Assembly: GCF_004803695.1 (NCBI RefSeq)
Contig: NZ_CP039393.1
Coordinates: 1,488,001 to 1,552,000, forward strand
DNA from: Muribaculum gordoncarteri
Lineage (GTDB): Bacteria; Bacteroidota; Bacteroidia; Bacteroidales; Muribaculaceae
DNA: 64,000 bases
Direction: 5' to 3'
Below the pieces are notes generated by a model. The model was not told the origin of the DNA. It searched no databases and worked only from the letters and a program-made list of their open reading frames with translations. This document shows, in pieces, positions 49,114 through 64,000 of the stretch. Made by a program: the position numbers and the translations under genes. How positions within the stretch are numbered: position 1 is the stretch's first letter; every line of letters starts with the position of its first letter.

Positions 49114-49141
49114 AAGGGGTGTCTCCCCTGCTCTACCTTTG
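49114..49141 (+). promoter_or_regulatory. promoter element with hairpin before the thymidylate-synthase-like gene
   Basis: TACCTTTG (49134-49141) matches TAnnTTTG 25 bp upstream of the ATG. Directly upstream is AGGGG-TGTCT-CCCCT (49115-49129), which may be an operator or the end of the previous transcript. No -33 TTG at the right distance. Confidence 0.4.
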
Positions 49142-49165
49142 CATCATCACCAACGACAAATCATC

Positions 49166-49810
49166 ATGGCAAAAAACAAATACCATCAAATTCTTGCCCG
49201 TATCCTTTCGGAGGGCAAGACACAGACCAACCGCAAGGGAGATATACTCTATCTGATCAACCAGTCACTGTCTCTTACACCGGGCGACCTCCTCGATATT
49301 TTTGAGGAACACGGCATTGCCCGGAAGAAACTGCGCACCGAGCTTCAGCTTTTCATGCAGGGTGAAAGTTCAGTGGAGCGATACCGCGAGGTCGGCATCA
49401 ACTGGTGGGATTACTGCGGCTCCATACTCATCAATTCCTATCCCACTTACTTCGAGAAGCTGCCCCCGCTCATCGACCGTATCAACCGGGAAAAGCGCAA
49501 TTCAAAGAATTATGTGCTGTTCCTCAGTGAGACCAACGCCCAATCAAATCAAACGCCGTGCCTGTCGCTTGTGCAGTTCCAGATCGACGAGGGCGAGCTT
49601 GTACTAACCGCATACCAGCGCAGCTCTGACGCAAGTCTCGGTCTTCCCGCCGACATATACCATCTCTACCTTATGGCAAAGCACATTGATGTGCCGCTCA
49701 AGTCCATCACGCTGTTCCTCGGCAATGTGCATATCTACGAAAATAATATTGACAACACCCGCAAGCTGCTCTCCGGCAACGATACGGTAAGATTCAAACT
49801 CAACGTATGA
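49166..49810 (+). CDS. thymidylate-synthase-fold nucleotide (hydroxy)methylase, dCMP-type
   Basis: The 214-residue protein follows the ThyA scheme: 'ELQLFMQGESSV' and 'INWWDYCG' (E and W of the substrate pocket), catalytic Cys132 in 'TPCLSL', then exactly 20 residues later Arg152 in 'QRSSDASLGLPADI', and 'GNVHIYENN' near the end. E. coli ThyA has the same Cys-Arg spacing and an Asn (177) that selects uracil; the aligned residue here is Asp163. T4 dCMP hydroxymethylase also has Asp there. A cytosine nucleotide substrate is therefore inferred. The next gene, an adenine methylase, overlaps by 4 bp. The start is ATG 49166; the upstream ATG at 49139 is inside the promoter. Confidence 0.7.
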   Translation: MAKNKYHQILARILSEGKTQTNRKGDILYLINQSLSLTPGDLLDIFEEHGIARKKLRTELQLFMQGESSVERYREVGINWWDYCGSILINSYPTYFEKLPPLIDRINREKRNSKNYVLFLSETNAQSNQTPCLSLVQFQIDEGELVLTAYQRSSDASLGLPADIYHLYLMAKHIDVPLKSITLFLGNVHIYENNIDNTRKLLSGNDTVRFKLNV

Positions 49811-50661
49811 GCAAACTGTATATGTCCGCGCCATTGCCTTTCGTAGGGCAAAAGCGCATGTTCGCCAAGCACTTCATAGAGGTTATAAAGCAATATCCCG
49901 CCGGCACCGTATTCGTTGACCTGTTCGGAGGCTCCGGATTATTGTCGCATATCACAAAACACTTCCATCCCGATTCAACAGTGATATATAATGACTTTGA
50001 CGGATACCGCCGGCGCATCGACAACATATCGCGCACCAACCATCTGCTGTCATTGATCCGTCCCATCGCATCCCGGTTCCCGCGCCATAAGCCGGTGACC
50101 GGCGATGCCCGGGAGGAGATATTCCGCATACTGGAATCGGAGGAGCGAGAATCAGGATTCCTTGATTTCATCACCATTTCGTCATCGTTGATGTTCTCAA
50201 TGAAATACAAGATGTCAATCCCTGAGATGCGCAAGGAAGTTCTTTACAATAATGTCCGCAAATCCGGGTATGCCGAATGCCCGGATTATCTCGAAGGGCT
50301 TGAGATAACCTCGTGTGACTACAAAGAGCTTTTCGAAAGATATCGAAACATCCCGGGAGTTGTATTCCTTGTGGACCCACCGTACCTCTCAACTGATGTC
50401 GGCACCTACCGTATGTATTGGCGACTCGCCGATTACCTCGATGTGCTGTCGGTACTCCCGAGGCATAATTTCATCTATTTCACGTCCGAAAAATCATGCA
50501 TTGTGGAGCTGTGCGAGTGGATGGGTCGGAACCCGGCTCTCGGCAACCCGTTTGCCCGATGCCGGCGCAAGGAATTCAACGCCACCATGAATTATAATGC
50601 AGGATACACCGATATTATGCTTTTCACAGACCCGGGCGCGCAACCATCACGCCAAATTTAG
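49807..50661 (+). CDS. DNA adenine methylase (Dam/D12 class)
   Basis: The 284-residue protein shows the D12-class order: 'PLPFVGQKR' (substrate/AdoMet motif X-like), 'FVDLFGGSGLL' (motif I), a target recognition region, and 'VFLVDPPYLS' (motif IV DPPY, about residue 196). It methylates adenine N6, probably in phage DNA to resist restriction or time transposition. It overlaps the thymidylate-synthase-like gene in ATGA and ends the rightward operon at a bidirectional terminator. Confidence 0.88.
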   Translation: MSKLYMSAPLPFVGQKRMFAKHFIEVIKQYPAGTVFVDLFGGSGLLSHITKHFHPDSTVIYNDFDGYRRRIDNISRTNHLLSLIRPIASRFPRHKPVTGDAREEIFRILESEERESGFLDFITISSSLMFSMKYKMSIPEMRKEVLYNNVRKSGYAECPDYLEGLEITSCDYKELFERYRNIPGVVFLVDPPYLSTDVGTYRMYWRLADYLDVLSVLPRHNFIYFTSEKSCIVELCEWMGRNPALGNPFARCRRKEFNATMNYNAGYTDIMLFTDPGAQPSRQI

Positions 50662-50688
50662 CCGTTTATTCGCCCATATAACGCAATA

Positions 50689-50717
50689 GAGCCGTCACCC
50701 GATAAAGGTAACGGCTC
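50689..50717. terminator. terminator between convergent operons
   Basis: GAGCCGT (50689-50695) and ACGGCTC (50711-50717) form a 7-bp stem, extended by ACC/GGT, followed by CCGTTGTTTT. The site separates the rightward methylase gene from the leftward genes ending at 50745. Confidence 0.65.
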
Positions 50718-50744
50718 CCGTTGTTTTAATGCGACACGTGGCGT

Positions 50745-51248
50745 TTATGGGGCTTTGGGCGCAGCACTCTTGATGGCTACGTAGCTGTAAACCTCGATGC
50801 TCTCCACAATATCCTCATGGTCGTGGTTGGTGTGGGACTCGGCGAGTTGGAAGTCTTTGAAGGTCTCGCCATCGATGCCGGCGATCACATCATGGATTTT
50901 ATCGGGCAGATCAAGGTCTATCCCGACACCGGCAAAATCCTTATATGCCGGAGCCCAGTCAGTAACTATATGCAGTCTGACATTAGCCTCGGCACGGTAT
51001 TCCACCGCCGGAACAATGTCATTCCAACGGATAGGCTCGAATTCGATGAACACCGCCGGACGCTCCCATGGAGTGTCCTGATCGATGAATTCGACATTGC
51101 GGTTCCACAGGTCGATATGCTTTATAGCCCGAGGATAAAGTTCGTCATCGACATCCGCTTCATCCGGTCTTGTGTAATATTCCCCGGCAGCGTTTACGCA
51201 AAGAGCCTCAAGCCGGGTCTTGATCGCGTTGTATAATTCCTTTCTCAT
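50745..51248 (-). CDS. tail terminator/completion-like protein
   Basis: The 167-residue protein ('MRKELYNAIKTRLEAL' at the start, 'RPAVFIEFEPIRWNDI', 'VRLHIVTDW') has the alternating alpha/beta look of tail terminator proteins. It lies directly after the gpG-like gene with a 4-bp overlap, as head-tail joining genes do. The assignment is by position and general look. Confidence 0.55.
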   Translation of the reverse strand: MRKELYNAIKTRLEALCVNAAGEYYTRPDEADVDDELYPRAIKHIDLWNRNVEFIDQDTPWERPAVFIEFEPIRWNDIVPAVEYRAEANVRLHIVTDWAPAYKDFAGVGIDLDLPDKIHDVIAGIDGETFKDFQLAESHTNHDHEDIVESIEVYSYVAIKSAAPKAP

Positions 51249-51811
51249 TTCTCGTTTATGTCAAAATCAATTTTGAAGTATTCTGTTATATTTTCCTCGA
51301 TTATCTCCCTGACGGTTGCCTCGACCTCGGGAGATGTGCCGATGAATTTGCGCTGTGGTATCTTGATTGTCCTGCCGACCTTCATCAATGCCATGAATTT
51401 CCAGAACTCGGCTTCGGTGGACAGCTGTATGGTTCTTTTGTCATTGCGCCGGGTCCCGTCCTTCTTCCTGCCGAAGGAACCGGTGGCTTCGTAATACTTG
51501 TGCCAGAAAAACCGCTTCATGCGTTCTGTTACCTTTATCTCCCCGCCTTCGTTGTGGATGGCGGCCGCCGGGTGATCCGAGCGGAAAACTATGCTGCTGT
51601 CCTTCCTGACACTGTAAATGCTCCGGCGAAGACCGCCGGTGTCCACGAGTATCAGACCGCCGGGACGGGTCGGACTTTTTCGCCGTTGCCATGCCTGAGT
51701 GAAAAAAGCCTGACGCTCGAAGTTCCGGTCGAACTCGTCGGTCAGCTCAACCTCGATATCCCGGAGTATGTTCCGGATCACACGCTCGAAATCATTGCTC
51801 ATCATCGTCAT
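51245..51811 (-). CDS. phage virion morphogenesis protein (Mu gpG-like)
   Basis: The protein has 188 residues from ATG 51811, though ATGs at 51805 and 51802 are also possible. The segment 'GLILVDTGGLRRSIYSV' followed by 'AAAIHNEGGEIKV' is the core of the gpG/virion morphogenesis family involved in tail-head completion. The C-terminal part carries 'IPQRKFIGTSPEVEATV'. It is transcribed leftward with the early genes, apart from the other head genes. Confidence 0.75.
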   Translation of the reverse strand: MTMMSNDFERVIRNILRDIEVELTDEFDRNFERQAFFTQAWQRRKSPTRPGGLILVDTGGLRRSIYSVRKDSSIVFRSDHPAAAIHNEGGEIKVTERMKRFFWHKYYEATGSFGRKKDGTRRNDKRTIQLSTEAEFWKFMALMKVGRTIKIPQRKFIGTSPEVEATVREIIEENITEYFKIDFDINEK

Positions 51812-51991
51812 CGAATAGTGATGGCTGTATATTGCTGTCAACGAATCCCGGCTTGGTCGGTGCTTTCAGCAGGTTATAAAACGTCCGTTCGCTGAAACCA
51901 TACAAAGGATATATGTACCTCAGCCATATCTCCTTTGTATGGTTTCAGCGACTCGCTTTTTGTAACTTATTCCGGGTTTCTTTTTTGACAT
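51792..51991 (-). pseudogene. small phage gene broken by an inverted duplication
   Basis: From ATG 51991 one frame reads 'MSKKKPGISYKKRVAE' and soon stops. Another frame continues the protein as 'KEIWLRYIYPLYGFSERTFYNLLKAP' to a stop at 51792. Related small phage proteins (recalled, not searched) read these parts in one frame with a dozen or so residues between. In place of the missing segment there is an inverted copy of the bases coding 'PLYGFSE'. Confidence 0.65.
51891..51949. repeat. 25-bp inverted repeat inside the broken gene
   Basis: 51891-51915 pairs with 51925-51949, 24 of 25 bp, around a 9-nt loop. The outer 19 bp are perfect. It looks like a template-switch product because one arm is natural coding sequence and the other replaces expected coding sequence. 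Confidence 0.8.
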
Positions 51992-51996
51992 TCAGC

Positions 51997-52191
51997 TCAT
52001 CGATGTTTCTTTGGTTCCGGTTTATACGGTCTGATGTCGAGGATCATTTCGCAGCTCACTGTCACTCTGCCGCTCCCCTCGCACTGGAGGCACGTGTGGG
52101 TCTCCCCTTCCTCGTCACCGGGGACTCTGCCCGAGCCTTTGCAGACCCGGCAGAGTGCCACTTTCGGAGGACGTGATATTTCTCGTTTCAT
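51997..52191 (-). CDS. small zinc-ribbon protein
   Basis: A 64-residue protein with two CxxCxGxG motifs ('CRVCKGSGRV', 'CLQCEGSGRV'), as in the DnaJ zinc finger. Its ATG at 52191 overlaps the Gam stop in ATGA. It resembles the other zinc-ribbon protein of the early operon at 53593. Function is unknown. Confidence 0.65.
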   Translation of the reverse strand: MKREISRPPKVALCRVCKGSGRVPGDEEGETHTCLQCEGSGRVTVSCEMILDIRPYKPEPKKHR

Positions 52192-52709
52192 ACTACGCTC
52201 TCCTCCTTTTTGGGTTCGACGAAGAAGGTCTCCTCCTGCACCACCGAGATGCCGCAACGTGCGAGGTTGGCTGCCACTGTCTCATCTTCTCGGTCGGCGA
52301 GAAGTTTGTCCTTGGCTATCTCCTCGGTGGCACGGATATGACCGGGCAGGAACTCTTTGATGAGCTGCAGTGCGCTTGCCCATGTGAACCCCTTGAGAGT
52401 TTTGAGCTTTGGGGTACCGGTGCGGAACCCGATGGTGCCATGCACCATGTCGAGGCTCTTTTTCTTTGAGAACAGCTCCGACTGGTTTTCGGTGGCGAAA
52501 GACTGAAGTGTCTCAAACGCTTCGTCCTGTGTGGTCTGCAGCTGTGAGAGTCTTTCCTGATGCTTCTCTCGAATACGTGCGCACTGGAGCTCGATGTCTG
52601 CAGTGATTTTCGCACGTTCTGCGTCTGCCTTGGCGTAAACTGCGAAGGCTTCCTCGGCCGCGTCTTTTGACACGCCGGTGATGATTGTCTTTTTTGCTCT
52701 TTTTGCCAT
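52188..52709 (-). CDS. gam: Gam-like host-nuclease inhibitor
   Basis: From ATG 52709 the protein has 173 residues: a long coiled coil ('AEEAFAVYAKADAERAKITADIELQCARI') followed by 'MVHGTIGFRTGTPKLKTLKGFTW'. This order is that of Mu Gam, a Ku-like protein that binds double-strand ends and protects DNA from exonucleases. Placement in the early operon agrees. An upstream in-frame ATG at 52739 precedes it by ten poor residues. Confidence 0.88.
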   Translation of the reverse strand: MAKRAKKTIITGVSKDAAEEAFAVYAKADAERAKITADIELQCARIREKHQERLSQLQTTQDEAFETLQSFATENQSELFSKKKSLDMVHGTIGFRTGTPKLKTLKGFTWASALQLIKEFLPGHIRATEEIAKDKLLADREDETVAANLARCGISVVQEETFFVEPKKEESVV

Positions 52710-52731
52710 ATAGTTTTGTTGTTGATGGTGA

Positions 52732-52902
52732 TTATTCATCTATCGGGAACACCGTGTCGGTGTCATCGCTGTATTCGGCTATGTCAGCCTGACTCGTGGT
52801 CCATTCAGCAAGTTCACGCATGAGGTTTATATAATCCTCGTTCTCCATGTCGGAGGTATGGAGCTGAATGAAGTTCTTGATTTGTTGTATTACCCTTTTC
52901 AT
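52732..52902 (-). CDS. 56-residue early protein
   Basis: A short reading frame from ATG 52902 to TAA 52732, between the gp16-like gene and gam. It starts 'MKRVIQQIKNFIQLHT' and is acidic at the end ('YSDDTDTVFPIDE'). It fills the gap tightly (1 bp after the preceding gene's stop) and is on the operon strand, so it is probably real. No function recognised. Confidence 0.55.
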   Translation of the reverse strand: MKRVIQQIKNFIQLHTSDMENEDYINLMRELAEWTTSQADIAEYSDDTDTVFPIDE

Positions 52903-52903
52903 T

Positions 52904-53389
52904 TCAGTTATAGCTTGTCATGCCGGGACCGGCAAGGTTGATAAGATAAGTTATTCGCTCGGTTGGGGCCGGAGCCTGTTCAGGCTGTTCCTTCTTGCGC
53001 TGCCATCCCTTGCGCTTGATTGAGCGGAGTTTGGTCGCAAGTTCCATCAGTTCTTCGATTGACAGCTGACCGAAGGCTTTGCCGGCTATTCTCGGGTGAC
53101 GGCAGAAATCGTTGATCTGCGCCCAGTCGGTAGTATCAACCTCAAGCTCCTGCATCAGCTTAAGGACTATGCTGCGGCGACGCTTCAGCTCGTCCTTGGT
53201 GCCGCTCATTCCCTCGATGGCGGTGCAGAGGTCGGAGTATTCTTTCCGGGTCATCTCCTTGAGGGAGTCGGTGCGCCCGGCGGTGTACTGCAGCACGAAC
53301 TGACGCTTTGCCTCGTCCGGCTCTCCATGTATGGTGAGCTTATGGAAAGCGGAGTAGAACCGCCCGAAGTTAGTTACCTGCTGTTTCAT
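52904..53389 (-). CDS. gp16/GemA-like early protein (DUF1018)
   Basis: The 161-residue protein has the DUF1018/gp16 layout: 'FYSAFHKLTIHGEPDEAKRQ' near the N-terminus, 'MTRKEYSDLCTAIEGM', and 'QINDFCRHPRIAGKAFGQLS' in the middle. Mu gp16 is nearby in the early region of Mu and GemA modulates host DNA topology. It overlaps the upstream small gene by about 20 bp. Confidence 0.8.
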   Translation of the reverse strand: MKQQVTNFGRFYSAFHKLTIHGEPDEAKRQFVLQYTAGRTDSLKEMTRKEYSDLCTAIEGMSGTKDELKRRRSIVLKLMQELEVDTTDWAQINDFCRHPRIAGKAFGQLSIEELMELATKLRSIKRKGWQRKKEQPEQAPAPTERITYLINLAGPGMTSYN

Positions 53390-53588
53390 TGCTCTTGCTC
53401 TGTTCTTGTTTGTAGTGAAGCATTGCCATCAGGGTTTCTTCTGACAGATGTTTTGCCACCCCTAAGAAATATGTGTCCACATACTCGGCGATTGCCCATT
53501 CAGAAGCATATTCAAGGTTCTTCTCGATGAATTGAGCTTTTTCGGTTCGGCCTAACTGCCGAAAGGCTTGATTGATGTTTTGTGCCAT
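53370..53588 (-). CDS. small early protein, unrecognised
   Basis: A 72-residue helical protein ('MAQNINQAFRQLGRTEKAQF'). It lies between the zinc-ribbon and gp16-like genes on the early operon, spaced 4 bp after the former. No family recognised. Confidence 0.6.
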   Translation of the reverse strand: MAQNINQAFRQLGRTEKAQFIEKNLEYASEWAIAEYVDTYFLGVAKHLSEETLMAMLHYKQEQSKSNETAGN

Positions 53589-53592
53589 AATC

Positions 53593-53811
53593 TTATCTTT
53601 TATTAGGTTTCCACTCTACTGTTACCACGGCAATGACCTCGCCGGTTCCCTTGCAGTCGGGGCACTCCTCCATCGATGGGCCTTCGACCGTATCAATCGG
53701 GAATCCTCCCCTGCCGTTGCAATAGCGGCATGTCATCGGAGCGGAAACAAACGCCTCATTATGGATGCGCCCGGAAGGTTCAAGCTCCACTATCTGTTTC
53801 TTTATGCTCAT
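53593..53811 (-). CDS. small zinc-ribbon protein
   Basis: A 72-residue protein with 'CRYCNGRGG' and 'CPDCKGTGEV', a DnaJ-type zinc ribbon. It overlaps the ATPase gene end by 32 bp. A second, similar zinc-ribbon gene occurs at 51997-52191. Partner unknown. Confidence 0.65.
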   Translation of the reverse strand: MSIKKQIVELEPSGRIHNEAFVSAPMTCRYCNGRGGFPIDTVEGPSMEECPDCKGTGEVIAVVTVEWKPNKR

Positions 53812-54439
53812 CTTTTTCTATGTTGTTTGACGTTCTTAACTCTCCTTCTTCCCATATTGTGTAGCAGCTGCCCGGATCTCCGGTGAAGCGCCCTTGACAA
53901 TAAGCCTTGTAGCCTACCACTCGGATTTTAATTCCGGCTTTGTATTTGAGTCGCCCTGCCGGTTTGCCGGCTGGTTCCCCTTTATACTCCTGCGATATGA
54001 ATATGAAACTCTTGCGATGGAAACGGCTTATCAGCTCCATGAATTGATCGTAAGTGATTCCGCTCTCCTGAAAGCTGTCGATTATGACGAACTTTGCGCT
54101 CTTAGGGCGACCGAGTCTCTCAGCAAGTTCCTCGTAGGTGTCATCAGTGATCACGCGGAATCGCCCCTGCACCTCACTCATCCTTTCACGCTTTATTCGC
54201 ATCTGGAACGACTGACTTATTCCTTCCTCATAGCTCAAATACAGGGTGGTCCCGTAGTTGCATAATTCCTTGGCAAGCTGCATCACGAAGCTGCTCTTGC
54301 CGGATGCCGAGGCGCCACTGATAAACCATGTCTCGTTGACTGGCACCTCACCAAATGGACCGCTCCATTTCTCGCCCCATGGTAAGGTCTTGTATTTTTT
54401 GGCGAGAACCTCTTTCGGACTGTATGCTCGCTTTGCCAT
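53780..54439 (-). CDS. RecA/DnaB-like P-loop ATPase
   Basis: The 219-residue protein has Walker A 'SGASASGKSS' (41-50), 'LYLSYEEG' after strand 2, and Walker B 'KFVIIDSFQESG' (about 114-125), with 'SFIFISQEYKGEPAG' as the next strand. This is the RecA-like fold. Its place after the MuB-like gene and before gp16/Gam suggests help in phage DNA replication or transposition. Substrate unknown. Confidence 0.7.
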   Translation of the reverse strand: MAKRAYSPKEVLAKKYKTLPWGEKWSGPFGEVPVNETWFISGASASGKSSFVMQLAKELCNYGTTLYLSYEEGISQSFQMRIKRERMSEVQGRFRVITDDTYEELAERLGRPKSAKFVIIDSFQESGITYDQFMELISRFHRKSFIFISQEYKGEPAGKPAGRLKYKAGIKIRVVGYKAYCQGRFTGDPGSCYTIWEEGELRTSNNIEKDEHKETDSGA

Positions 54440-54441
54440 CG

Positions 54442-54672
54442 TTACTTCTTCTCTTGAGTCTTTTTCAATTCTGCTATAAGCAAATCTGCCTCTGCCACAG
54501 CGTCCTTAACATCATCCTCTCTTGATGTCAAGAGTTTTCTGCGTTCCATATAGACAGCAAACGCTATCTCATATCGACGCTGCTCCCAATCGGGCTCAGC
54601 ATCCTGTGCCTTACGCATCATTCGGTTGATATTGATCACCGAATCCATATATTGTTTTTCAATCACAGTCAT
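54442..54672 (-). CDS. small early protein, unrecognised
   Basis: A 76-residue, helical and charged protein. Its stop lies 2 bp before the P-loop ATPase start, so the genes are coupled. No motif. Confidence 0.6.
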   Translation of the reverse strand: MTVIEKQYMDSVININRMMRKAQDAEPDWEQRRYEIAFAVYMERRKLLTSREDDVKDAVAEADLLIAELKKTQEKK

Positions 54673-54674
54673 AA

Positions 54675-54950
54675 TTATTTACGTTTTGAGGTTTTATGGG
54701 GAAACTTGTAACACCATCCCATGATTTTTTCCAACTTGATGCCTTCGGGCAAAAGGCCAAATGTATTTACCTTTACAATACCCAACTTAGGACATACACG
54801 GCCTAAATGAAGGTCAATATACTTGCCGTCCTTAAAGACCACTCGAATTTCACGACGCTTGTTTGCTTTCGTTAACTCTGACGGATCCTTCAGCACTCTA
54901 CGGCTCCCGTCCGCAAACGTGACTTTAATCTTGTAATCCATCATAGTCAC
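54675..54950 (-). CDS. small early protein, unrecognised
   Basis: A 91-residue basic protein, beta-rich in the first half ('YKIKVTFADGSRRVL', 'REIRVVFKDGKYIDLHLG'). It overlaps the MuB-like stop in a 4-bp overlap. Two similar strands of 'F.DG' suggest a small repeat. Function unknown. Confidence 0.6.
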   Translation of the reverse strand: MTMMDYKIKVTFADGSRRVLKDPSELTKANKRREIRVVFKDGKYIDLHLGRVCPKLGIVKVNTFGLLPEGIKLEKIMGWCYKFPHKTSKRK

Positions 54951-55819
54951 GCCATTTTAAGTTTTTCAATTTCGGTATACACACGGCGCAGACCGCCGGC
55001 ACTCTTTCTCACGATCACACCGATATCGGTGCCTTCCGGAGCGTTGACCTTAGCCACAACGCGAGCTTGCTCTTTCAGGAATGCCTCACGTTCACGTCCG
55101 TCATCCGGGGTTATCCTGCTGTAACGGTCTCCGTAACGGCTGAACATCTCGGCATAACCAACCTTGTTGCACTCGATGGAGCGGTTGATTTTCGCCTTGA
55201 GTCCGTCGGCGCCCATCATATACCATGCGCAGCACCGCTCGGTGGCGTTCCAAAGTGCCTTCAATTCGAGGAAGGCTTCATACTGGAGGTCGCCGGCTTC
55301 GTCAAGTATGATCAGCGGGGTGTCTATTGAGCGAAGGTAGAACACAAGGTCGGCATACACATCCGAGTATGACCCTCTGGTGTTGGAACCGAACTCGGTC
55401 GCTATCTTGCGAACGAGCTTCAGCTTGGTCTTGACCTGCGAACAGTCGATGTAGACCGCATTCGGATGGGTCTTGACATAATGCCGGGCGGTAAAGGTCT
55501 TGCCGATATTGGGAAGGTCACACAACAGACCGCTCAACCCACGCTCCTGTATGAATTCGAGCTGCGTAGTGATATACTTGAAGGTCTCGGTCTTGGCTGC
55601 CTTCCATTCTATCCCGCCACGGAGATTGACCCCGAGCTTGCGGGCTATGCTCATCCAGTTGCCGTCGCTAAGGACACGCTCGGTCTGCCCGTTCTTGATG
55701 GAGCTGTATGCCGAGGTTGTCACCCCGAGTGAAGCGGCGTGTTTGGCATCGCTCGGGTAATTTGTCCGGGCTGCCCTTATCGCTTCTGCGATTTTGTTTC
55801 TGATTTCTGTTGTAATCAT
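54947..55819 (-). CDS. MuB-like transposition ATPase
   Basis: The 290-residue protein begins with a helix-turn-helix domain (about 1-65, as in MuB), then an AAA+ domain with Walker A 'CDLPNIGKTFTA' (100-111) and Walker B 'PLIILDEAGDLQ' (about 172-183). MuB selects target DNA, delivers it to MuA and provides target immunity. It is directly downstream of the transposase gene, as in Mu. Confidence 0.88.
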   Translation of the reverse strand: MITTEIRNKIAEAIRAARTNYPSDAKHAASLGVTTSAYSSIKNGQTERVLSDGNWMSIARKLGVNLRGGIEWKAAKTETFKYITTQLEFIQERGLSGLLCDLPNIGKTFTARHYVKTHPNAVYIDCSQVKTKLKLVRKIATEFGSNTRGSYSDVYADLVFYLRSIDTPLIILDEAGDLQYEAFLELKALWNATERCCAWYMMGADGLKAKINRSIECNKVGYAEMFSRYGDRYSRITPDDGREREAFLKEQARVVAKVNAPEGTDIGVIVRKSAGGLRRVYTEIEKLKMA

Positions 55820-55842
55820 ATTCTAACAGTGTTTTAATTTCA

Positions 55843-57849
55843 TTATAAATCTTCGATTGCCACCTTTGCGGTGTCATATTCAACCCATGCCGCTGTGAGC
55901 GTTTCGGGCGCGTCTGTCGCCGTTTCGACCTCCGGCACGGTAATGTCCTCGTCCTCCGGCTCCGGAGCCGCCGTGCGCGCCTGTATGCCCAGACGGGCGA
56001 TTGCGTTTTTACTCAAGTATTCCTTGAACTGGTTTATCTTCTGCATCTGCCTTGCAAACCGGGCTTTATCCTCCTCCGTCTGCTCTGCCATGACACGGCT
56101 GAATGTCTCGACTTTCTCAACCTTGTCGATGTAGCGGTCATCCTGATAAAGGTACACGTCCTGAGCGTCGCCTTCATCATCCGGCAGATAGTATGCCGTC
56201 ACTTTATAGCTGTTCGACTTCAGGCGACCGAGCACCTCCGGCTCGCTGAGCCACCAGTCACTATGGCTGACCCTTACTGTAGAATTGCGCCGGATACTCG
56301 TGGAAACCTTCATACCTACGTACCGGGCTACCATCCGGTCATCGTAAGGTCTGAGATTGGGGTTGATATTGGAGACCAGGACTTCCCATCGTGTCATTCC
56401 GGGATAATTCTTTTGATCCGGATGGAGGCTGTTGTTCCATTCAGCGTTGTCGGCTCGGTCGTCGGCCACAAGCTCCTCGAAGGTATAGTATTTTTTGTCC
56501 TCCCATGTCTCGTTGGTCTCGTCGCTGATCTTTTTCTGGTATGTGCGCCACTTACCTTTGCCATAGAAGCGTCCCACTTCCTCACGGTTCTTATGGATTA
56601 TGCTCCGCTTCTTGGCTCCGTTGAGCGGCTCAGCCTGTTTCTCCTGTGAATTCTGAGGGGCGCAGAACCTTACCCGGGAGAACACGACGCCTTCGGCAAG
56701 CAATCCCTCTTTATGACGGGTCATAAGGTGGTTCTCGACCTCGATACCGGCGGGCATTCCCCATCGGCGACGCTTGATCAGCCGGAACATCTGCCTGAAG
56801 CAGTCATCAACAAGAGCCTCGTCCTTTTTCATCGAATAGGTGGCGGCAAGCACACACTCGCTCACTGAGTCGTAGGCATAATAGGCGTGTACCCGTTTGT
56901 TGCCCGGCATCCGTCGAGGAAGATCAACGTCATCCATTGTAATCTGCGAGAGTGAGTATTGACCACGGTGACGGTGAACATGGGGCATATTCTCGTGGTA
57001 GAAATCCACATTGGGTTTTAGACGCTGGTCGATAAAAAGCTTAACGTCCGGGCGATTAAGGTAATTGGTGATGGTCGCCTCGCTCGGTATCCAAGGTTCC
57101 CCGTTCTTTATCCTTGCGCATTCGTCCGGGTCAAGCAGTTCGCCTGTTTCCGGATCCCATACATCAAGCTCACCGCACACGAACATCTCATACATCTTCC
57201 TGACGGTGGTGTTCCACGGACGGGTGGGCAATACCGCCAGACCCTTGATGGCTCTCTCCTCATTCTCGGTCAGCATCTGGGCATTCTTATTGCCGAATTT
57301 GCCGCTCACAAGGGCGATATAACCATATTTACGGTAATCGTTGACCTTGCGACGGAAGCGAAGCACCGAAGCCGGAAGAGTGTGGCCGAATTGCACCCGG
57401 AGGCTCTCTATCACGGCGGTCATGCGTGACCAGTCATAGTCCCTGCCGAAAAGTCGTTGTGATGCAGATGCGTTGTCATATAGCTTGATGCAGGTGTTCA
57501 GCACTGAAGCGTTTACCATATACTCACGCTTCTTGCCGATCTTCAGCTCGGTACCGGTCTTTTTCGGGTCGTTGAAAAATTCGACCGCTTTTTGATCCTC
57601 CACATAGTTGCTGCGTACCCATGCTGCTATATGGGCGTCTTTGCCACCAAGCTTTTCATCAACTTGAATTCGGTGTTCCGGCTTGAGGGAGTCGTATGCG
57701 ACAAGGGCATAGTTGCCGGCTCCACCTCCTGGGCGCACGACATCGAGGCGTTTACGCTGAACCGCCTTCTCATAACTGCCAACAGTCATGATGCCGGTGT
57801 CGATAAGCTCACGCGCCGATACACAATATATGCCGTTGTGGTACTGCAT
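55843..57849 (-). CDS. MuA-like DDE transposase
   Basis: The 668-residue protein matches MuA in length and layout: N-terminal DNA-binding domains (about 1-270), an rve-type catalytic core with 'SQITMDDVDLPRR' (Asp306/307), 'PAGIEVENHLM' (Glu370/372 where Mu has Asp) and 'SQEKQAEPLNGAKK' (Glu403/407), and a helical C-terminal part that would contact MuB. It inserts the phage and drives replicative transposition using the repeats at the phage ends. Which acidic residues are catalytic needs alignment. Confidence 0.88.
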   Translation of the reverse strand: MQYHNGIYCVSARELIDTGIMTVGSYEKAVQRKRLDVVRPGGGAGNYALVAYDSLKPEHRIQVDEKLGGKDAHIAAWVRSNYVEDQKAVEFFNDPKKTGTELKIGKKREYMVNASVLNTCIKLYDNASASQRLFGRDYDWSRMTAVIESLRVQFGHTLPASVLRFRRKVNDYRKYGYIALVSGKFGNKNAQMLTENEERAIKGLAVLPTRPWNTTVRKMYEMFVCGELDVWDPETGELLDPDECARIKNGEPWIPSEATITNYLNRPDVKLFIDQRLKPNVDFYHENMPHVHRHRGQYSLSQITMDDVDLPRRMPGNKRVHAYYAYDSVSECVLAATYSMKKDEALVDDCFRQMFRLIKRRRWGMPAGIEVENHLMTRHKEGLLAEGVVFSRVRFCAPQNSQEKQAEPLNGAKKRSIIHKNREEVGRFYGKGKWRTYQKKISDETNETWEDKKYYTFEELVADDRADNAEWNNSLHPDQKNYPGMTRWEVLVSNINPNLRPYDDRMVARYVGMKVSTSIRRNSTVRVSHSDWWLSEPEVLGRLKSNSYKVTAYYLPDDEGDAQDVYLYQDDRYIDKVEKVETFSRVMAEQTEEDKARFARQMQKINQFKEYLSKNAIARLGIQARTAAPEPEDEDITVPEVETATDAPETLTAAWVEYDTAKVAIEDL

Positions 57850-57861
57850 GACTCTCCGAAT

Positions 57862-58242
57862 TTAGAGTGCCTCCGCCATTCTCTTTATATCATCGATCTG
57901 GCTCATCATGACATGCTCATATCTCGCTGCCACTTCCCCTTTGGGACCATATACCGTCCCCTCGCCGGTCTGCTTGTCAAGGTAGATTTCGGCCCGGTTG
58001 GGATAGACTGCGTGCCAGCAGCCATCGGAGTCAAAGAAGAATTCTCCCTCCTTGAGGTTGTAGTACGTGCAGCCTCCATGTTGCTTGAGAGCCACAAAAC
58101 GTATCTTTTTGGCAAGGTCGTTGTTTTGGCGATAGGCAAGTGCGTTTCTCACACAACGTTCCCCGATGGGCTTGCCATCGATGCGAAACGCCTTCTGGAG
58201 CTTGAGTATGCCTTCTTTGCTTACTGAAATATACTTTTTCAT
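57862..58242 (-). CDS. early phage protein, unrecognised
   Basis: From ATG 58242 the protein has 126 residues: 'MKKYISVSKEGILKLQKAF', a helix-turn-helix-like start ('GERCVRNALAYR'), then a beta part 'YYNLKEGEFFFDSDGC'. The upstream ATG at 58323 runs through spacer. It sits directly upstream of the transposase gene. DNA binding is possible. Confidence 0.6.
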   Translation of the reverse strand: MKKYISVSKEGILKLQKAFRIDGKPIGERCVRNALAYRQNNDLAKKIRFVALKQHGGCTYYNLKEGEFFFDSDGCWHAVYPNRAEIYLDKQTGEGTVYGPKGEVAARYEHVMMSQIDDIKRMAEAL

Positions 58243-58303
58243 ATTCTCACTTATTTGATTTTTTGTTATTTTTGCGCTTATTTTCCAAATGGAATAGTTA
58301 TGG

Positions 58304-58684
58304 TTAGAAAATCTCCCTTTCATCCATGGTCATCCGCTTTCGTGGCCATGTATTTTGATACTTCCTTAGCACAGTGGGCGAGACCACTCCTCCAAGAATG
58401 TGTATCAGCCTTTGCGCATCTTCAAGGAATTGAACTCGTGTGTACCGACCGAATATCTCTGCCGGATGACATTTCAGAAGCCAACGCTCAGCTTGGTGCA
58501 TACAACGAAGCTGATCTTTTTCTGTGCCGCTCTTCAGAGCAGTCGCTAATGTCGCAAAAGGAGTTTGAGAAAGCCATTTCCGGACTCTTTTCAAATGTTC
58601 AATTTGGCAGTCCAGTATGGTTGAATCTTTTGCCGGATAGATACAAAGCGTTTTATCATCTACCGGAATAATCATTTGCTTCAT
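58304..58684 (-). CDS. early phage protein, unrecognised
   Basis: A 126-residue protein on the operon strand, starting 'MKQMIIPVDDKTLCIYPAKD', then helices. An antisense frame of similar length exists at 58255-58671, but the operon strand is preferred because all neighbours read leftward. Function unknown. Confidence 0.55.
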   Translation of the reverse strand: MKQMIIPVDDKTLCIYPAKDSTILDCQIEHLKRVRKWLSQTPFATLATALKSGTEKDQLRCMHQAERWLLKCHPAEIFGRYTRVQFLEDAQRLIHILGGVVSPTVLRKYQNTWPRKRMTMDEREIF

Positions 58685-58688
58685 AGTC

Positions 58689-58910
58689 TCACTTTTTATT
58701 TAGTTGGTTATTCATCTTGTCTATCGCTTCCTTGATGGCAAAGTGACCCTCCACTAATGCGCCGTACTGTTTGGATTGGTCGGCTTCATATTCGCTGTGG
58801 GTCGCCTCATATTCGTCAAGGACGGTCGAAGTGTCCTCAAACTGACGCTGCAAGGTCGTTAACATCACCTTGACTGCGTTATCGATCATTCGTTCTGCTC
58901 GTTGCTTCAT
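58689..58910 (-). CDS. small early protein, unrecognised
   Basis: A 73-residue, all-helical and charged protein ('MKQRAERMIDNAVKVMLTTL'). It lies 4 bp upstream of the next early gene and just after the tRNA-like segment. No motif. Confidence 0.6.
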   Translation of the reverse strand: MKQRAERMIDNAVKVMLTTLQRQFEDTSTVLDEYEATHSEYEADQSKQYGALVEGHFAIKEAIDKMNNQLNKK

Positions 58911-58928
58911 CTTTGAAAGCTTTTAGTA

Positions 58929-59069
58929 GGAGGTCGGGGAATCGAACCCCGATACTTGCGCCATGGTCGCTCACCTTCCGGGCCTCCCTGATTCCCCGGT
59001 GAAATTTGGCAACACCGGGGAGTGGAAAAATTTGTTTTGCCTTTCGGCTTTAACCGGCTCTCTTGCCGG
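58929..59069 (-). ncRNA. structured segment with a tRNA-like 3' half
   Basis: On the minus strand, 58987-58929 gives GGAGG at the start and CCTCC at the end. A perfect T-arm lies between (TCGGGG / CCCCGA around GTTCGATT, matching the GGTTCGANTCC B-box), and a 7-nt loop reads ACCATGG on a 3-bp stem, with CAT in anticodon position. There is no room for a D-arm (59 nt in all). Upstream are a perfect 8-bp hairpin (58994-59020) and a 5-bp one (59054-59069). The 180 bp between two early genes contain no reading frame. Confidence 0.4.
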
Positions 59070-59089
59070 AGGATCGCCCTCTCTTGGGT

Positions 59090-59467
59090 CTAACCCTGTT
59101 CGTTTATAGTCTCTTGACGGCGACGGTTGTTGTCAACTATGTCGTCGAACCACCTGTCGCTCATCAGAATCTTAAATATCGCAAGCCGACCCATATTAAG
59201 ACCTGTCAATGGGAACATCAGGAAGGTAAGGCCATCGGGGTAGGCGTTATCACCTGTAAGCCCGTATTCCATGTTCATATCCTTGCCTCGGAAAGTAATA
59301 AACCACTCCGGCTCACCTACACCTTCCTCTTTAAGCAACCGGCAGTATCCGTTGGTCCACTCATCGAGATTCCCGCCACATCCTGTAATCGTGTAGAAAC
59401 TTCCGTTATAGGCTGCCGTGAAAATCTCTTCGCGGTTGTTGGGGGTCATGTTAATTATTGCGCTCAT
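59090..59467 (-). CDS. early phage protein, unrecognised
   Basis: From ATG 59467 the protein has 125 residues: 'MSAIINMTPNNREEIFTAAYNGSFYTITG', then 'EPEWFITFRGKDMNMEYG'. An ATG at 59539 in the same frame lies inside the upstream gene. Not recognised. Confidence 0.6.
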   Translation of the reverse strand: MSAIINMTPNNREEIFTAAYNGSFYTITGCGGNLDEWTNGYCRLLKEEGVGEPEWFITFRGKDMNMEYGLTGDNAYPDGLTFLMFPLTGLNMGRLAIFKILMSDRWFDDIVDNNRRRQETINEQG

Positions 59468-59471
59468 AGTC

Positions 59472-59882
59472 TTACTCGTTACAGGTGATTGCCCAAAGAA
59501 GTCTCTGAAGGTCGCCTCTAAGCTCTTGCATGGCGACACGCTTGAGTACCTCCGCCGCGTTCATCATCATGTTTGTGCTTGAGGGGGTCTGACTCCCTTC
59601 GATAAGGGTGTGCTCTATATTCCCGATATGGTTACCGAGGCAAGTCTTGATCTTGTCAAGGTCATCCAATGAGGTCATCGGGCGCAACTCTCGCACTGCC
59701 ATGAGGTTTACCTGAGCCTTATACATCTCGTCGCTGTGCCAACGGAAGAAGTATTCATAATCCTCATTCATCTCGGTAGCATACTTCTCCACCTTGCGCT
59801 CGTACTTACGACGCACGCTTTTATACTCGCCCTTGAATATTTCAAGGATCTCCTGCTTGGTCATTTTCTTTGTCTCACTCAT
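59472..59882 (-). CDS. early phage protein, unrecognised
   Basis: A 136-residue, helical, highly charged protein ('RRKYERKVEKYATEMNEDYE'), second gene of the leftward early operon. It starts 6 bp after the preceding stop. No motif. Confidence 0.6.
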   Translation of the reverse strand: MSETKKMTKQEILEIFKGEYKSVRRKYERKVEKYATEMNEDYEYFFRWHSDEMYKAQVNLMAVRELRPMTSLDDLDKIKTCLGNHIGNIEHTLIEGSQTPSSTNMMMNAAEVLKRVAMQELRGDLQRLLWAITCNE

Positions 59883-59888
59883 AGGTAT

Positions 59889-60140
59889 TTAGTCTTTGTT
59901 TTTGATTGATTTGTAACGTGCCGAAATCATATCGGCCATCTTGTCGATCTCGTCAGCCTTGATACCGAGGGCGAGGTAAAGCTCTTCATCTTCAGGATCC
60001 ACGAGCGAGAAATCCTCGTCCTCATCCTCAGCTATCATCATACTCATCAGCTCCTCGATGGCATAGTGAAGACTTGTCGCCATCGAAATGACTCGTGCCA
60101 TCTGGCGGGTCTTTTGTTCTTTGATTTCGTTGTTGGTCAT
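59889..60140 (-). CDS. first early protein, unrecognised (position of Mu ner)
   Basis: An 83-residue acidic protein ('EDEDEDFSLVDPEDEELYL'), first gene downstream of the early promoter, where Mu has ner. It lacks a helix-turn-helix, so it is not a Ner homologue by sequence. Unknown. Confidence 0.6.
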   Translation of the reverse strand: MTNNEIKEQKTRQMARVISMATSLHYAIEELMSMMIAEDEDEDFSLVDPEDEELYLALGIKADEIDKMADMISARYKSIKNKD

Positions 60141-60150
60141 AATCTTAAAT

Positions 60151-60261
60151 TTGTTAAAATCGCGGCTTTTTTGTATCTTTGGCCGCTCGTTCCATCAGGA
60201 ACACGCTGCAAAGATAAGCGATAATTCTCGCACAACAAAATTTTTCAACGATAATTTTCGC
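60151..60261. promoter_or_regulatory. lysis-lysogeny switch: face-to-face promoters and two operators
   Basis: A rightward promoter has TTG 60151-60153 and TATCTTTG 60174-60181 (20-bp spacer). A leftward promoter has, on the minus strand, TTG at 60238-60236 and TATCTTTG at 60216-60209 (19-bp spacer). Their transcripts would start at about 60188 and 60202 and run past each other. Two 14-bp sites, GCGATAATTCTCGC (60218-60231) and ACGATAATTTTCGC (60248-60261), are 30 bp apart; the first lies between the -7 and -33 of the leftward promoter, the second just before the repressor ATG. They are probable repressor operators. Confidence 0.7.
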
Positions 60262-60264
60262 ATT

Positions 60265-60729
60265 ATGTGTAAAATTTTATCTCGTATAAAGACTTTAGCA
60301 GATGCCGAAGGGATCTCCATCGGCACTATCGAGCGTACCATTGGAGCAAGCCGAGGCGTTATATCTAAGGCAATTGCGAAAGGAACCGACATTCAATCTA
60401 AATGGCTGGAACTCATCTGTGAAAAATTTCCCAAGTATTCTCCTGTATGGCTACTAACAGGGCAAGGGGCAATGTTATTGGAATCCTCGGACACTCCAAT
60501 AATTCATTCCTCTGTGCCGGAGGACCACATTGACGAGAAAATTTTCGTTGACAACCCTCAAAAATTATCGCAAAACCCGGTCCCCTCCATGGTAAACACA
60601 TTCTTAGAAACCATTAAGCAGCAAGCGGAAGAAATCGGGCGGTTAAAGGCTCGCATCGAGGAATTAGAGAGAGAGAGGCCGGTCCCTGCCTATGCCCGTT
60701 CTACATCGAAGGAGACTGTAGATCTCTGA
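60265..60729 (+). CDS. phage repressor
   Basis: From ATG 60265 the protein has 154 residues. The N-terminal helix-turn-helix ('ISIGTIERTIGASRGVISKAIAKG') is of the type found in Bacteroidales phage repressors, followed by 'KYSPVWLLTGQGAML', a common sequence in the family. The C-terminal end is a coiled coil ('QQAEEIGRLKARIEELERER') likely for dimerisation. No autoprotease domain. It should bind the two sites upstream and silence the leftward early promoter. The ATG at 60088 is in the early gene region and unlikely. Confidence 0.82.
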   Translation: MCKILSRIKTLADAEGISIGTIERTIGASRGVISKAIAKGTDIQSKWLELICEKFPKYSPVWLLTGQGAMLLESSDTPIIHSSVPEDHIDEKIFVDNPQKLSQNPVPSMVNTFLETIKQQAEEIGRLKARIEELERERPVPAYARSTSKETVDL

Positions 60730-61208
60730 GACCTATGTCTAAGCATGACCTCCTTCGCTTGATCCACACCCAGTGCCACCTGAATTGACCTTTGGGATGT
60801 TCACTGTGGTACCCTCGGTGACCACCGGTATACCCTCCCTCCACTCGGCTTTAGCAGTTCCCCCCTCGCTTAACCGCTATAAATAAGCTAAAATGCTGAT
60901 TTTACGCTATATTAATAATGTGGATTTGAAAAAGTAGGGGTTTCTACGTTCGCAACAAAACCCCGATTTTAACATTTCATTTTGAAGTAACGGTATTTTG
61001 CCCCTATCAGCTTTTTGCACCTCAACGGACTGAAACCTGTCCGTCCAAGTTTTGCAAAATGTCCGTCCAAGTTGTCCGCCCTTGTGTCCGTCCTCGCATG
61101 AAAATCGCCCTAAATCGAACTGTTCGGGCACAAAAATAGGGAACCGGCTGGCTCCCTTCTCTTATGGCGTTAATATGCCGTTATAATACCTTTAGAATCC
61201 TATCCGGA
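60730..61208. other. gene-free right-arm segment with a 13-bp direct repeat
   Basis: No convincing gene was found. GTCCGTCCAAGTT occurs at 61039-61051 and 61061-61073, with a partial third copy about 61083-61094. A minus-strand frame at 60907-61131 crosses the repeats and looks non-coding. Otherwise AT-rich sequence. Confidence 0.5.
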
Positions 61209-61439
61209 TTATTCTCGACAACTATCCCCACGAGGACACGTTATAAGCGTTGACTGCTTGATACACGCCTTTTTAGTCATTACCATGCCTCCTCCGCTCA
61301 ATCCGGCACGACGTAGGTAATCATACCCACAACCCACCTCATCAGGCGTTAAAACGGTAAATATGGCGGCTATTGAGCCAAAATATAGATCCCGGCGCTT
61401 GCCGATAAGATGCACATGTATCACTTTCACTGGTCCCAT
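61209..61439 (-). CDS. small conserved-looking phage protein at the right arm
   Basis: From ATG 61439 the protein has 76 residues: 'MGPVKVIHVHLIGKRRDLYFGSI', then 'LTPDEVGCGYDYLRRAGLSGGG'. The pattern recalls small proteins found near the repressor end of Bacteroidales Mu-like phages, from memory. It faces the repressor. Possibly a lysogenic-conversion or regulatory gene. Confidence 0.55.
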   Translation of the reverse strand: MGPVKVIHVHLIGKRRDLYFGSIAAIFTVLTPDEVGCGYDYLRRAGLSGGGMVMTKKACIKQSTLITCPRGDSCRE

Positions 61440-61701
61440 AGTCCTAATATTTCCTGCAAAATTACACAAATAACCGTTATATCAACCTTTTTGACTTTAC
61501 AAAGTAACGAAACGGGCATAAAAATAACCGGCACACAACCGGCTCCACTACCCCATCATCCATCTTGATCAGCGGCTCAACCCGTCGAAACCCCGGTCAA
61601 AACTATTGCAAGCCCGGCGACAATCCCGATTAAACCATGCGCAGCCCTCGTGTAAACTTTTCGGCTCAAAAATTAAACCGAAATCCAATCCATGTTAACT
61701 T

Positions 61702-61810
61702 TCGGAACATTTCGTTTTCATGCACTCCACTCCCCTGCCCTCATCTAACCCTCTGAAATCAAAAGCATTTTACAAAATCACGCCGACCACATCAAGCAAC
61801 GCTTCGTTCT
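61702..61810 (-). repeat. right-end transposase binding sites
   Basis: On the minus strand AAAACGAAATGTTCCGA (61718-61702) is nearly identical to left sites L1/L2, and AGAACGAAGCGTTGC (61810-61796) is a diverged copy. Both are inverted relative to the left end. The outermost copy lies about 8 bp from the first bases of cas9, as expected of a Mu-type end. Confidence 0.65.
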
Positions 61811-61817
61811 GTGCCCC

Positions 61818-63953
61818 ATAGAAATCAGAATCGAGCTTGCCCGAGAGCTGAAAAAATCAGCTAAGGAGCGTGCCGACCTTATCTCGTCGATCAACAAGGC
61901 GACTGCCGATAACGAAAAGATAAGGCAATTGCTTATCAATGAGTTCGGTATTCAACGGCCAAGCCGAAATGATGTAATACGATATCGCCTATACGATGAG
62001 CTGAGTAAAGTAGGATACCACACTTTATACTCGGATACCTATATACCCCGCGAGGAGCTGTTTTCCAAGCGATTTGACATTGAGCACATAATACCTCAGT
62101 CACGATTGTTTGACGACTCTTTTGCTAACAAAACCATCGAGGCGCGTGACATAAACATTGAAAAGGGCAATGCCACGGCTTTGGACTTCGTTGAAGCCAA
62201 GTATGACTCGGAATATGTCAAGGAGTATCGCAATCGTGTGGATAAATTGCTTAAGGAAGGTAAAATAGGTCACGGTAAGTACAATAAGCTTCTCACCAAG
62301 GAGAATGACATTCCCGAGGATTTCATAAACCGCGATTTGCGCAACACCCAATACATATCGCGCAAGGCGTTGGAGATACTGTCGGAAGTCGCACCCGAGG
62401 TCACGGCGACATCAGGCTCGATTACCGAGCGCTTGCGTGAGGACTGGCAACTTATCGATGTGCTGCAGGAGCTTAACTGGGATAAGTATGACAGGCAGGG
62501 CCTTACAGAAACAATTGTCAACCGTGACGGTAACACCGTGAGGCGCATAAAGGATTGGACCAAGCGTAACGATCACCGTCACCATGCTGTCGACGCAGTG
62601 GCCATTGCCTTTACCAGGGCGGAATATGTGCATTATCTAAACAATCTTAATGCACAGAGCGACAAGGGTAAGGAGTTTTACGCCATACGCGAACGCTATC
62701 TTGAGCGTGACAAGCACAATAATCTGCGATTCCGATCGCCGATTCCCGTCAAGGAATTCCGCACGGTGGTGAAGGATCAGCTTGAAAAGTCATTTGTTTC
62801 GCATAAGTCCAAAAACAAGGTAGTGACAAAGAATGTCAATGCCACAAAGTGCAGCGGCGGTGTCAATCGAAAGGTGCAGCTCACACCCCGCGGACAATTG
62901 CACAACGAAACGGTGTACGGACGCATAATGCAGCCTGTCGTGCGGGAAGAGAAGATAGGAGTAGCATTTGACTACGACAAGATTGCTACTGTGGCATCGG
63001 CCGTTGAGCGAAAAGCGTTGGCACGCAGGCTTGATATGTTTAACGGCGACCCCAAGAAAGCATTTACTGGCAAGAACAGCCCGACAAAGAATCCCGTATA
63101 TATCGACAACGAGCGCAAGGTTGAATTAGGCACGAAGGTGAAAACCGTTACGATGGAGTGTGTCTACACTATAAGGAAGGAGATTTCCGAGAGCCTTAAG
63201 CTTGACAAGGTCATTGACAAAGGAGTTAAGCGCATACTGCAACAGCGACTCGATGAGAACGGCGGTGACCCCAAAGAGGCATTCACCAATCTTGATGCTA
63301 ATCCCATATACCTGAATAAGGAGAAGGGCATAACCATAAAGCGGGTGACCATAACCGGTCCTACCGAGGTGGAACCGCTTCACTCCAAGAGGGATCATCT
63401 TGGCAATGAAATGCGTGATGCCGACGGACGCACTATACCCACCGACTTTATAAACACCGGCAACAACCATCACATAGCCATATACCGTGATGCTTCGGGA
63501 AATCTTCAGGAACGTGTCATGAGCTTCTTTGAAGCCACAGCTCGTGCTTGTGCCCAGCCCCCGCTTCCGGTGATCGATAAGGATTATAGAAAGTGCGACG
63601 GATGGGAATTCCTGTTTACAATGAAACGTAATGAGTACTTTGTGTTTCCGCGATATGAATCGGTCGTAGACAGCTCAACAGGTCAGGAAAAGTTGATAAA
63701 GACATTTGATCCCAAGGCCGTTGACTTGCTCGACAGAGATAATTACGCAAAGATTAGCCCGAATCTGTTCAGGGTTCAAAAACTCGCATCTAAATATTAT
63801 GTTTTCCGTCATCATCTGGAAACCAATGTCGACGATGTAAAGGAGCTTCGTGACATTACCTGGAAACGAATACAGACCATTAAATTAATGGACGAAGCAG
63901 TCAAGGTAAGAATCGACAATCTTGGCCGGATTGTCGCTGTGGGCGAATCGTAA
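61818..63953 (+). pseudogene. cas9: 3' part of type II-C cas9, cut off by the prophage
   Basis: About 711 codons in frame to a TAA. They begin with RuvC-II 'IEIRIELARELKKS' (the catalytic Glu is in 'IELARE'). HNH follows ('FDIEHIIPQSRLFDDSFANK', catalytic His in 'EHIIP', 'INIEKGNAT'), then RuvC-III 'HRHHAVDAVAIAF', and a C-terminal WED/PAM-interacting-like region with 'GGDPKEAFT' repeats. Missing are RuvC-I, the bridge helix and the whole recognition lobe, about half of a type II-C protein. Upstream of 61818 the frame is phage sequence with no start; a TTG at 61929 is the first possible one. Any product would be inactive as a nuclease guide complex. cas1 follows. Confidence 0.9.
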
Positions 63954-63972: not shown

Positions 63973-64000
63973 ATGATAAAACGTACTTTATATTTCGGTA
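63973..64000 (+). CDS. cas1: start of cas1 (cut by the window edge)
   Basis: Nine codons, 'MIKRTLYFG', begin 19 bp after the cas9 stop. This opening is typical of type II-C Cas1 proteins, and cas1 regularly follows cas9. The rest, presumably with cas2 and the CRISPR array, lies beyond the window. Confidence 0.7.

Follow-up and report, generated by a model that had tools for sequence, protein, structure and literature searches.

A Mu-like prophage end within the cas9 gene of a Muribaculum type II-C CRISPR locus, and its probable origin in a phage-bounded deletion

Introduction

How does the end of a prophage come to lie in the middle of a cas9 gene, and what became of the front of that gene? 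The question is raised by a stretch of 64,000 nucleotides of Muribaculum gordoncarteri, called the window here (bases 1488001-1552000 of the main contig), in a genome of 3.43 Mb that is assembled in three contigs and is 99.99% complete. The original prediction held that a Mu-like prophage had disabled the gene by inserting into it, shortly before the RuvC-II glutamate, and that this would be selected if the CRISPR array carried spacers against the phage. In the literature that we found, deletion of CRISPR loci by Mu-like phages is represented by a single laboratory system, DMS3 in Pseudomonas aeruginosa. The literature searched, which left most subscription papers outside its reach, yielded no report of a Mu-like prophage that ends within cas9 in nature.

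Results

The cas9 remnant starts at the first base past the phage

The cas9 remnant (Table 1) is an open frame of 710 codons with no internal stop, as predicted, and it matches the Cas9 profile TIGR01865 (E 2.8e-69, profile positions 512-967 of 1070). The HNH_4 and RuvC_III domains were also detected. By alignment, the RuvC-II glutamate lies at 61833-61835, the HNH histidine at 62085-62087, and the RuvC-III histidine and aspartate at 62580-62582 and 62592-62594, respectively; we take these to be the catalytic residues. The first base of the remnant is also the first base of a glutamate codon, and it stands four codons before the RuvC-II glutamate, which agrees with the few codons originally proposed. 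The earliest in-frame ATG, GTG or TTG is a TTG at 61929 (codon 37), and the RuvC-II glutamate is therefore upstream of any usual start.

Table 1. Positions of features in the window
Feature	Position	Strand	Remarks
Restriction-modification island	16118..22551		Within the left-flank element; left edge approximate
C5 methylase	16525-17838		Island; Pfam
NgoBV-type nuclease	17831-18571		Island; Pfam
Island integrase	21053-22300		Island; Pfam
Left flank	22532..22865		Mobile-element DNA, not cas9
Mu-like (transposable) prophage	22866..61820		38,955 bp; repressor/transposase (c) end at right
S-end terminus	22866..22929	+	Repeated transposase-site-like boxes AAACGAAATGTTCC; placed by relatives' alignment, site role presumed
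Spacer 20 protospacer	30994..31023	+	29/30 bases; mismatch at position 2 from the PAM-distal end
MuB-like transposition protein	54947..55819	-	phrog_296, E 3.4e-39
MuA-like transposase	55843..57849	-	phrog_310, E 7.9e-45
Repressor-like regulator at c-end	60265..60729	+	Reads towards cas9; phrog_8 match
c-end terminus	61704..61820	-	TATGGGGCACAGAACGAAGCGTT read inward; inverted box 61704-61718
cas9 remnant	61821..63953	+	RuvC-II, HNH, RuvC-III and C-terminal part kept; RuvC-I, bridge helix and recognition lobe absent
cas1 start	63973..64000	+	cas1, cas2 and array continue beyond the window (L002:2973-6240)

We compared the remnant with the best 80 of 458 confirmed Cas9 loci, which are from Bacteroidota and mostly from Bacteroidales. 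Eleven full-length relatives picked from these 80 were 57-63% identical to the remnant and had 675-730 residues ahead of the breakpoint, and the alignment of the remnant to them begins at the first codon past the phage. These missing residues and the domain matches bear out the expectation that the gene had kept HNH, RuvC-II, RuvC-III and the C-terminal domain and had lost its front. The remnant retains 231 of the 249 columns that are invariant across the 11 relatives; this and the open frame, the sole basis on which the event was called recent, suggest as much while giving it no date. In 73 of the best 80 loci the upstream frame is open for at least 640 codons, and four loci run off their contigs, two of these four (L047 and L090) reaching too little upstream to judge. 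Three have a frame broken 126-481 codons upstream (L075, L086 and L087), at points unlike that of the remnant. A phage-free relative whose cas9 began at the same point had been named as evidence against disruption by the phage; among the 78 judged of the best 80, none begins there.

Between 60700 and 62200, promoter-like sites number five (2.7, sd 1.8, in shuffled sequences) and terminator-like sites four (1.3, sd 1.4). A CRISPR system with this remnant very probably cannot cut, and the cell would appear to be without any active Cas9. In type II systems in general, addition of spacers by cas1-cas2 without Cas9 is unlikely.

Both ends of the prophage are present to the base

The right end of the phage was placed by comparison with other phage DNA. 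A viral contig, L011, matches the window through TATGGGGCAC and then enters a different gene, and four prophages of other genomes finish in near-identical c-end sequence (1-4 mismatches in 25). The c-end terminus here finishes ...TTCTGTGCCCCATA, and these comparisons place the last phage base at 61820. The predicted end of a Mu-like prophage inside cas9 is thereby confirmed, as is the junction near 61.8 kb, although the stretch given for the original observation, from 61702 onwards, is at first still phage. A further possibility, that foreign DNA fills the ~100 bp from the inverted box to cas9, is ruled out by the L011 alignment, in which this stretch belongs to the phage terminus.

At the other end, the S-end terminus reads TATAATCCGCAAAACGAAATGTT and includes a tandem repeat at 22875-22929. 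Nineteen outside prophages or contigs share this start, which is TATAATCC in 18 and TGTAATCC in one, and the DNA preceding it differs in each; the S-end of the phage is therefore at 22866. One further sequence (L138) matched elsewhere in the query and was left out of this alignment.

The termini are constant, and the host DNA next to them changes from one relative to another, as in Mu-like transposable phages of the Hankyphage group; the Mu-like hallmark of MuA and MuB beside a regulator at one end is present. The MuA-like transposase is 91-97% identical in five viral contigs. The regulator matches phrog_8 (transcriptional regulator) over 60241-60726 with an E value of 2.8e-06; its longest frame opens at 60088 and an ATG lies at 60265, so that its start codon is not pinned. 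From its position at the c-end it is presumably the repressor. The prophage also encodes a terminase, a portal, head and tail genes and a reverse transcriptase. A 6.8-kb c-end query found a single copy of the prophage in the genome, which speaks against an inversion between two prophage copies.

Searches for the cas9 front, the anti-repeat and a target repeat

Had the phage simply inserted, the front of cas9 would be expected beside the left phage end, and a short repeat would bound the phage on either side. We searched the genome for the front half with a 698-residue query from the relative L017 at E values up to 10 and found only its overlap with the remnant. The lost half is likewise absent from the opposite, left side of the prophage.

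Among nine relatives that have an array, seven carry an anti-repeat 65-160 bp ahead of cas9, and none was seen in L020 and L021. In the 121-kb stretch that holds our locus, no antisense match was found within five edits of 22, and the one 5-edit match in the sense direction is far from cas9. The repeat core, searched genome-wide with at most one mismatch, occurred in the 24 repeats and at one further site, at a distance of ~87 kb, against one match for the backward control; the anti-repeats of some relatives differ by two bases from the core used, and a diverged anti-repeat could escape this genome-wide search. An Rfam scan of the CRISPR stretch beyond the window (L002) gave nothing. The guide-processing RNA (tracrRNA region) was probably lost together with the front of cas9.

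According to one report (PMC10367356), transposable phages of P. gingivalis, which are grouped with Hankyphage, have 4-bp bounding repeats. We tried nine relatives of the prophage for such repeats. A clear c-end, with at most five mismatches of 25, was found in four, and all four have an exact 4-bp flanking repeat (GAGG, CACT, CACA and CATG). A looser search added L147, which has a divergent end followed by the repeat CTCT, and a c-end-like site without a repeat in L144; the c-ends of L141-L143, three of the nine, were not found even by this looser search. The L144 site (G221:C27:1-10000, with L129) may be a rearranged prophage or a contig-end effect. Our prophage is flanked by AAAA and GAAA, which agree at three of four positions and form no exact 4-bp repeat. 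We read the absent target duplication as the mark of a rearranged prophage, and not of one outside the Mu-like group.

The left flank belongs to another mobile element

The DNA left of the prophage was found to be part of a mobile element, in the order tRNA-Ser, integrase, sigma-54-type regulator and restriction-modification island, and a ~133-bp stretch that reaches the flank. In four of the five other loci examined, this first ~133 bp of the left flank follows a regulator that by eye resembles the one here. Homologues of the island in other genomes end at 22544-22551, while its left edge was placed by a 10-bp word common to 16118 and 22532, which share no 12-bp word. Between the cargo of the island and its integrase, at 20298-20553, are short tandem repeats with units of 8-48 bp (TCAATCAT-like). 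An Rfam scan of the left flank gave one sub-threshold match only.

The element appears to use the tRNA-Ser as its attachment site, and a second tRNA-Ser 3' end would then be expected on its far side. None was found, bar one site with two mismatches, and the right part of the element therefore seems to be missing.

One spacer of the array matches the resident phage

The locus has the gene set of type II-C, in the order cas9-cas1-cas2-array and with neither csn2 nor cas4. Cas1 and Cas2 were identified by Pfam, the array follows directly after cas2, and one copy of cas1 was found in the genome. The array has 24 full repeats, each of 47 nt, plus a degenerate 25th; of its 24 spacers, 23 are flanked by full repeats on both sides. 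Spacers 7 and 12 have the same sequence (L002:4857-4886 and 5241-5270), and spacers 11 and 18 are nearly identical (L002:5164-5193 and 5702-5731), as though acquired from variants of a single target.

A search of the array for spacers against the prophage, a check set beforehand, gave spacer 20 (Table 1), whose 28 PAM-side bases all match; the orientation of the protospacer follows our assignment of the anti-repeat side of the repeat. No other spacer among the 23 matched the prophage with up to eight mismatches, nor did any reversed spacer at the same threshold, and the 24th, before the degenerate repeat, had no match there with up to seven. The 23 spacers were also searched against the window and L002-L004 (up to six mismatches) and against 47 phage-bearing loci (up to seven mismatches), where only spacer 20 matched. 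In a scan of viral contigs with five spacer patterns, 20 and 22 matched, and 7/12, 9 and a merged 11/18 gave none; spacer 20 is matched perfectly in viral contigs L188 and L190.

The 3' flank of the protospacer (31024-31031) is CGACATAGG in the resident phage, and at ten other loci that match spacer 20 it is CGATATAGG (eight), CGATGTAGG (one) or CTATATAGG (one). Position +4 is C in the resident phage and T in all ten others. Should +4 matter, this C is a candidate for a PAM escape mutation. The one other protospacer found belongs to spacer 22; in three viral contigs its 3' flank is AGGAACGG, where +4 is A beside a perfect match, so that +4 seems not to be fixed. G2, A5 and G8 are common to the spacer 22 protospacer and the perfect spacer 20 protospacers. 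All three are present in the resident phage, which gives no indication of a destroyed PAM, on a comparison of two protospacers that is too small to settle it. L097 and L100, with 5-6 mismatches, deviate at +2 or +5.

Discussion

A probable phage-bounded deletion into cas9

The loss of cas9 at a phage end, as originally proposed, stands, but the proposed mechanism of plain insertion does not: the front half is not found, no anti-repeat was found, the left flank is mobile, and the flanking AAAA and GAAA form no exact 4-bp repeat. Simple insertion alone is ruled out by the missing front half and the missing exact repeat. We think it probable that a phage-bounded deletion joined the c-end to the middle of cas9. 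The Mu-like prophage would first have resided in an ICE-like mobile element beside tRNA-Ser, an earlier gene order that we reconstruct, and a later phage-driven event would have fused its c-end to the middle of cas9. What lay between the two would have been lost, namely the remaining part of the mobile element, the region of the tracrRNA and ~2 kb from the front of cas9. Such a deletion could have come about in either of two ways. In a single intramolecular replicative transposition ('adjacent deletion'), the phage ends would have attacked cas9 in the same chromosome; alternatively, a second copy inserted the same way round in cas9 would have recombined with the first. Both routes, if deletion is indeed what happened, yield the same product and are indistinguishable here. 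Since both termini are intact to the base, the joining probably took place at the phage ends and not by random decay, and the edges of the deletion coincide with those ends.

The outcome would be a lysogen whose sole cas1-bearing CRISPR system hardly cuts or processes guides, and which keeps a near-perfect spacer against its resident phage. Release from self-targeting plausibly favoured this lineage, and the establishment of the phage may have cost the bacterium its immunity to that phage. If so, the phage itself would have supplied the deletion that ended the conflict, and cas1, cas2 and the array would remain as a fossil record of the memory. Among three genomes of the genus compared for gene order, the M13 peptidase that adjoins the array has its best match far from trpA in G003, and on another contig than trpA in G004 and G009; the peptidase has paralogues, and its orthology in this comparison is uncertain.

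Several observations weigh against parts of this explanation. The flanking 4-mers agree at three of four bases, which makes a mutated repeat strictly possible; the L144 site is either an exception to the repeat rule or a second rearranged case; many isolates of the DMS3 experiment described below escaped with no deletion made by the phage; and the difference from ten relatives at +4 could be a PAM change that let the phage lysogenise without loss of Cas9.

The last of these leads to the alternative that survives best, which shares the deletion and differs on selection only. The deletion would be real but neutral: Cas9 would have lost its activity before it, or the phage would have escaped before it, with spacer 20 uninvolved. 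The C at +4, against T in ten of ten, and the mismatch at position 2 speak for neutrality, to which we give somewhat less than an even chance: the 28 PAM-side bases match, +4 seems variable, and G2, A5 and G8 are kept, as far as two protospacers can tell.

In an assembly artefact, alternative junctions of a transposing phage would have been merged, and the strain might possess an intact cas9. Induced Mu-like phages do make many junctions, and in PMC12135933 Hankyphage insertions occur throughout the genome even in the control strain. We consider an artefact unlikely here, given an assembly of three contigs at 99.99% completeness, no front half and one phage copy by the c-end query.

The joint of c-end and cas9 resembles, by itself, that of an ordinary insertion, and the left side could have been removed afterwards by a separate deletion independent of the phage. 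Such a deletion would need to stop exactly at the S-end, which is also intact to the base, and the front half of cas9 was not found in the genome; this sequence of events is very unlikely. That cas9 was already cut down, for instance by the mobile element, and that this earlier breakpoint afterwards received the phage, with a repeat mutated since (the 4-mers agree at three of four bases), is most improbable. It needs insertion within a few bases of an existing breakpoint, the alignment to the relatives starts at the first codon past the phage, and none of the 78 judged of the best 80 relatives begins there.

Comparison with known systems

With the phage-bounded deletion as the preferred explanation, the nearest likeness is that of DMS3 lysogens of P. 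aeruginosa PA14 under self-targeting. In that study, 8 of 18 isolates had deletions, seven of which took out ~34-335 kb about the CRISPR array and were bordered by phage reads; one begins in cas3, and in five of the seven a phage simply replaces the lost DNA (Suttenfield et al., 2024, PMC11406979). The same two routes are named by those authors, who cite Rollie et al. (2020) alongside CRISPR-Cas deletions in DMS3/PA14, and other escapes listed there were spacer changes (7/18 isolates) and cas lesions (4/18 isolates) (PMC11406979). Common to both cases are a Mu-like prophage, an imperfect spacer match, and CRISPR deletions edged by phage ends, of which one starts inside a cas gene. The DMS3 deletions differ in arising by laboratory evolution in a type I system, with 34-335 kb lost and the original prophage retained elsewhere (polylysogens), whereas the Muribaculum locus is in a natural genome, is of type II-C, has a single prophage and keeps cas1-cas2-array. 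The type I system of PA14 is of subtype I-F. The cas9 locus described here would be a natural type II-C counterpart of the process that the papers found show for a laboratory type I system.

Insertion sequences in cas genes also silence CRISPR-Cas by transposition in nature, with 28 cases, or 163 by a wider method, in one survey; these are small IS elements with duplicated target sites, unlike a prophage (PMC10359306). Among Bacteroidales, type II-C loci resemble ours in cas9-cas1-cas2, 47-nt repeats and 29-30-nt spacers, but have an anti-repeat upstream of cas9, which was not found at the remnant locus that lacks the cas9 front.

Possible cause and consequence thus occur together in a natural genome, as a spacer, its prophage target, and a phage end in the broken effector gene. 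From this follows a search rule, namely termini of transposable phages in cas genes, no target duplication, and an array spacer against the same phage, which allows the frequency of the phage-bounded route to be counted in public genomes. The termini to look for in such a survey are TATAATCCGCAAAACG and GTGCCCCATA. That type II CRISPR loci of Bacteroidales are repeatedly erased in nature by phage-bounded deletions, driven by self-targeting of resident transposable phages, is a speculation that we hold to be doubtful.

A megablast of 22500-47000 against 50,697 phage records gave no match, and the transposase of the prophage stays below 60% identity to each of the 35 phage records that it matched; 29 of these are Bacteroides or Porphyromonas phages. 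This sets the prophage apart from Hankyphage and the proposed Alisviridae, with which it shares the character of a transposable Bacteroidales phage with a MuA homologue and, in the case of Hankyphage, a reverse transcriptase (PMC12135933 and PMC10367356). A diversity-generating retroelement is a Hankyphage trait. The reverse transcriptase of our prophage (phrog_1423) lies at 23432-25229 of the window together with an RT-17 RNA (RF03020, 25127-25229, minus strand), and the tail-type protein encoded at 25618-27093 is a possible target of such an element.
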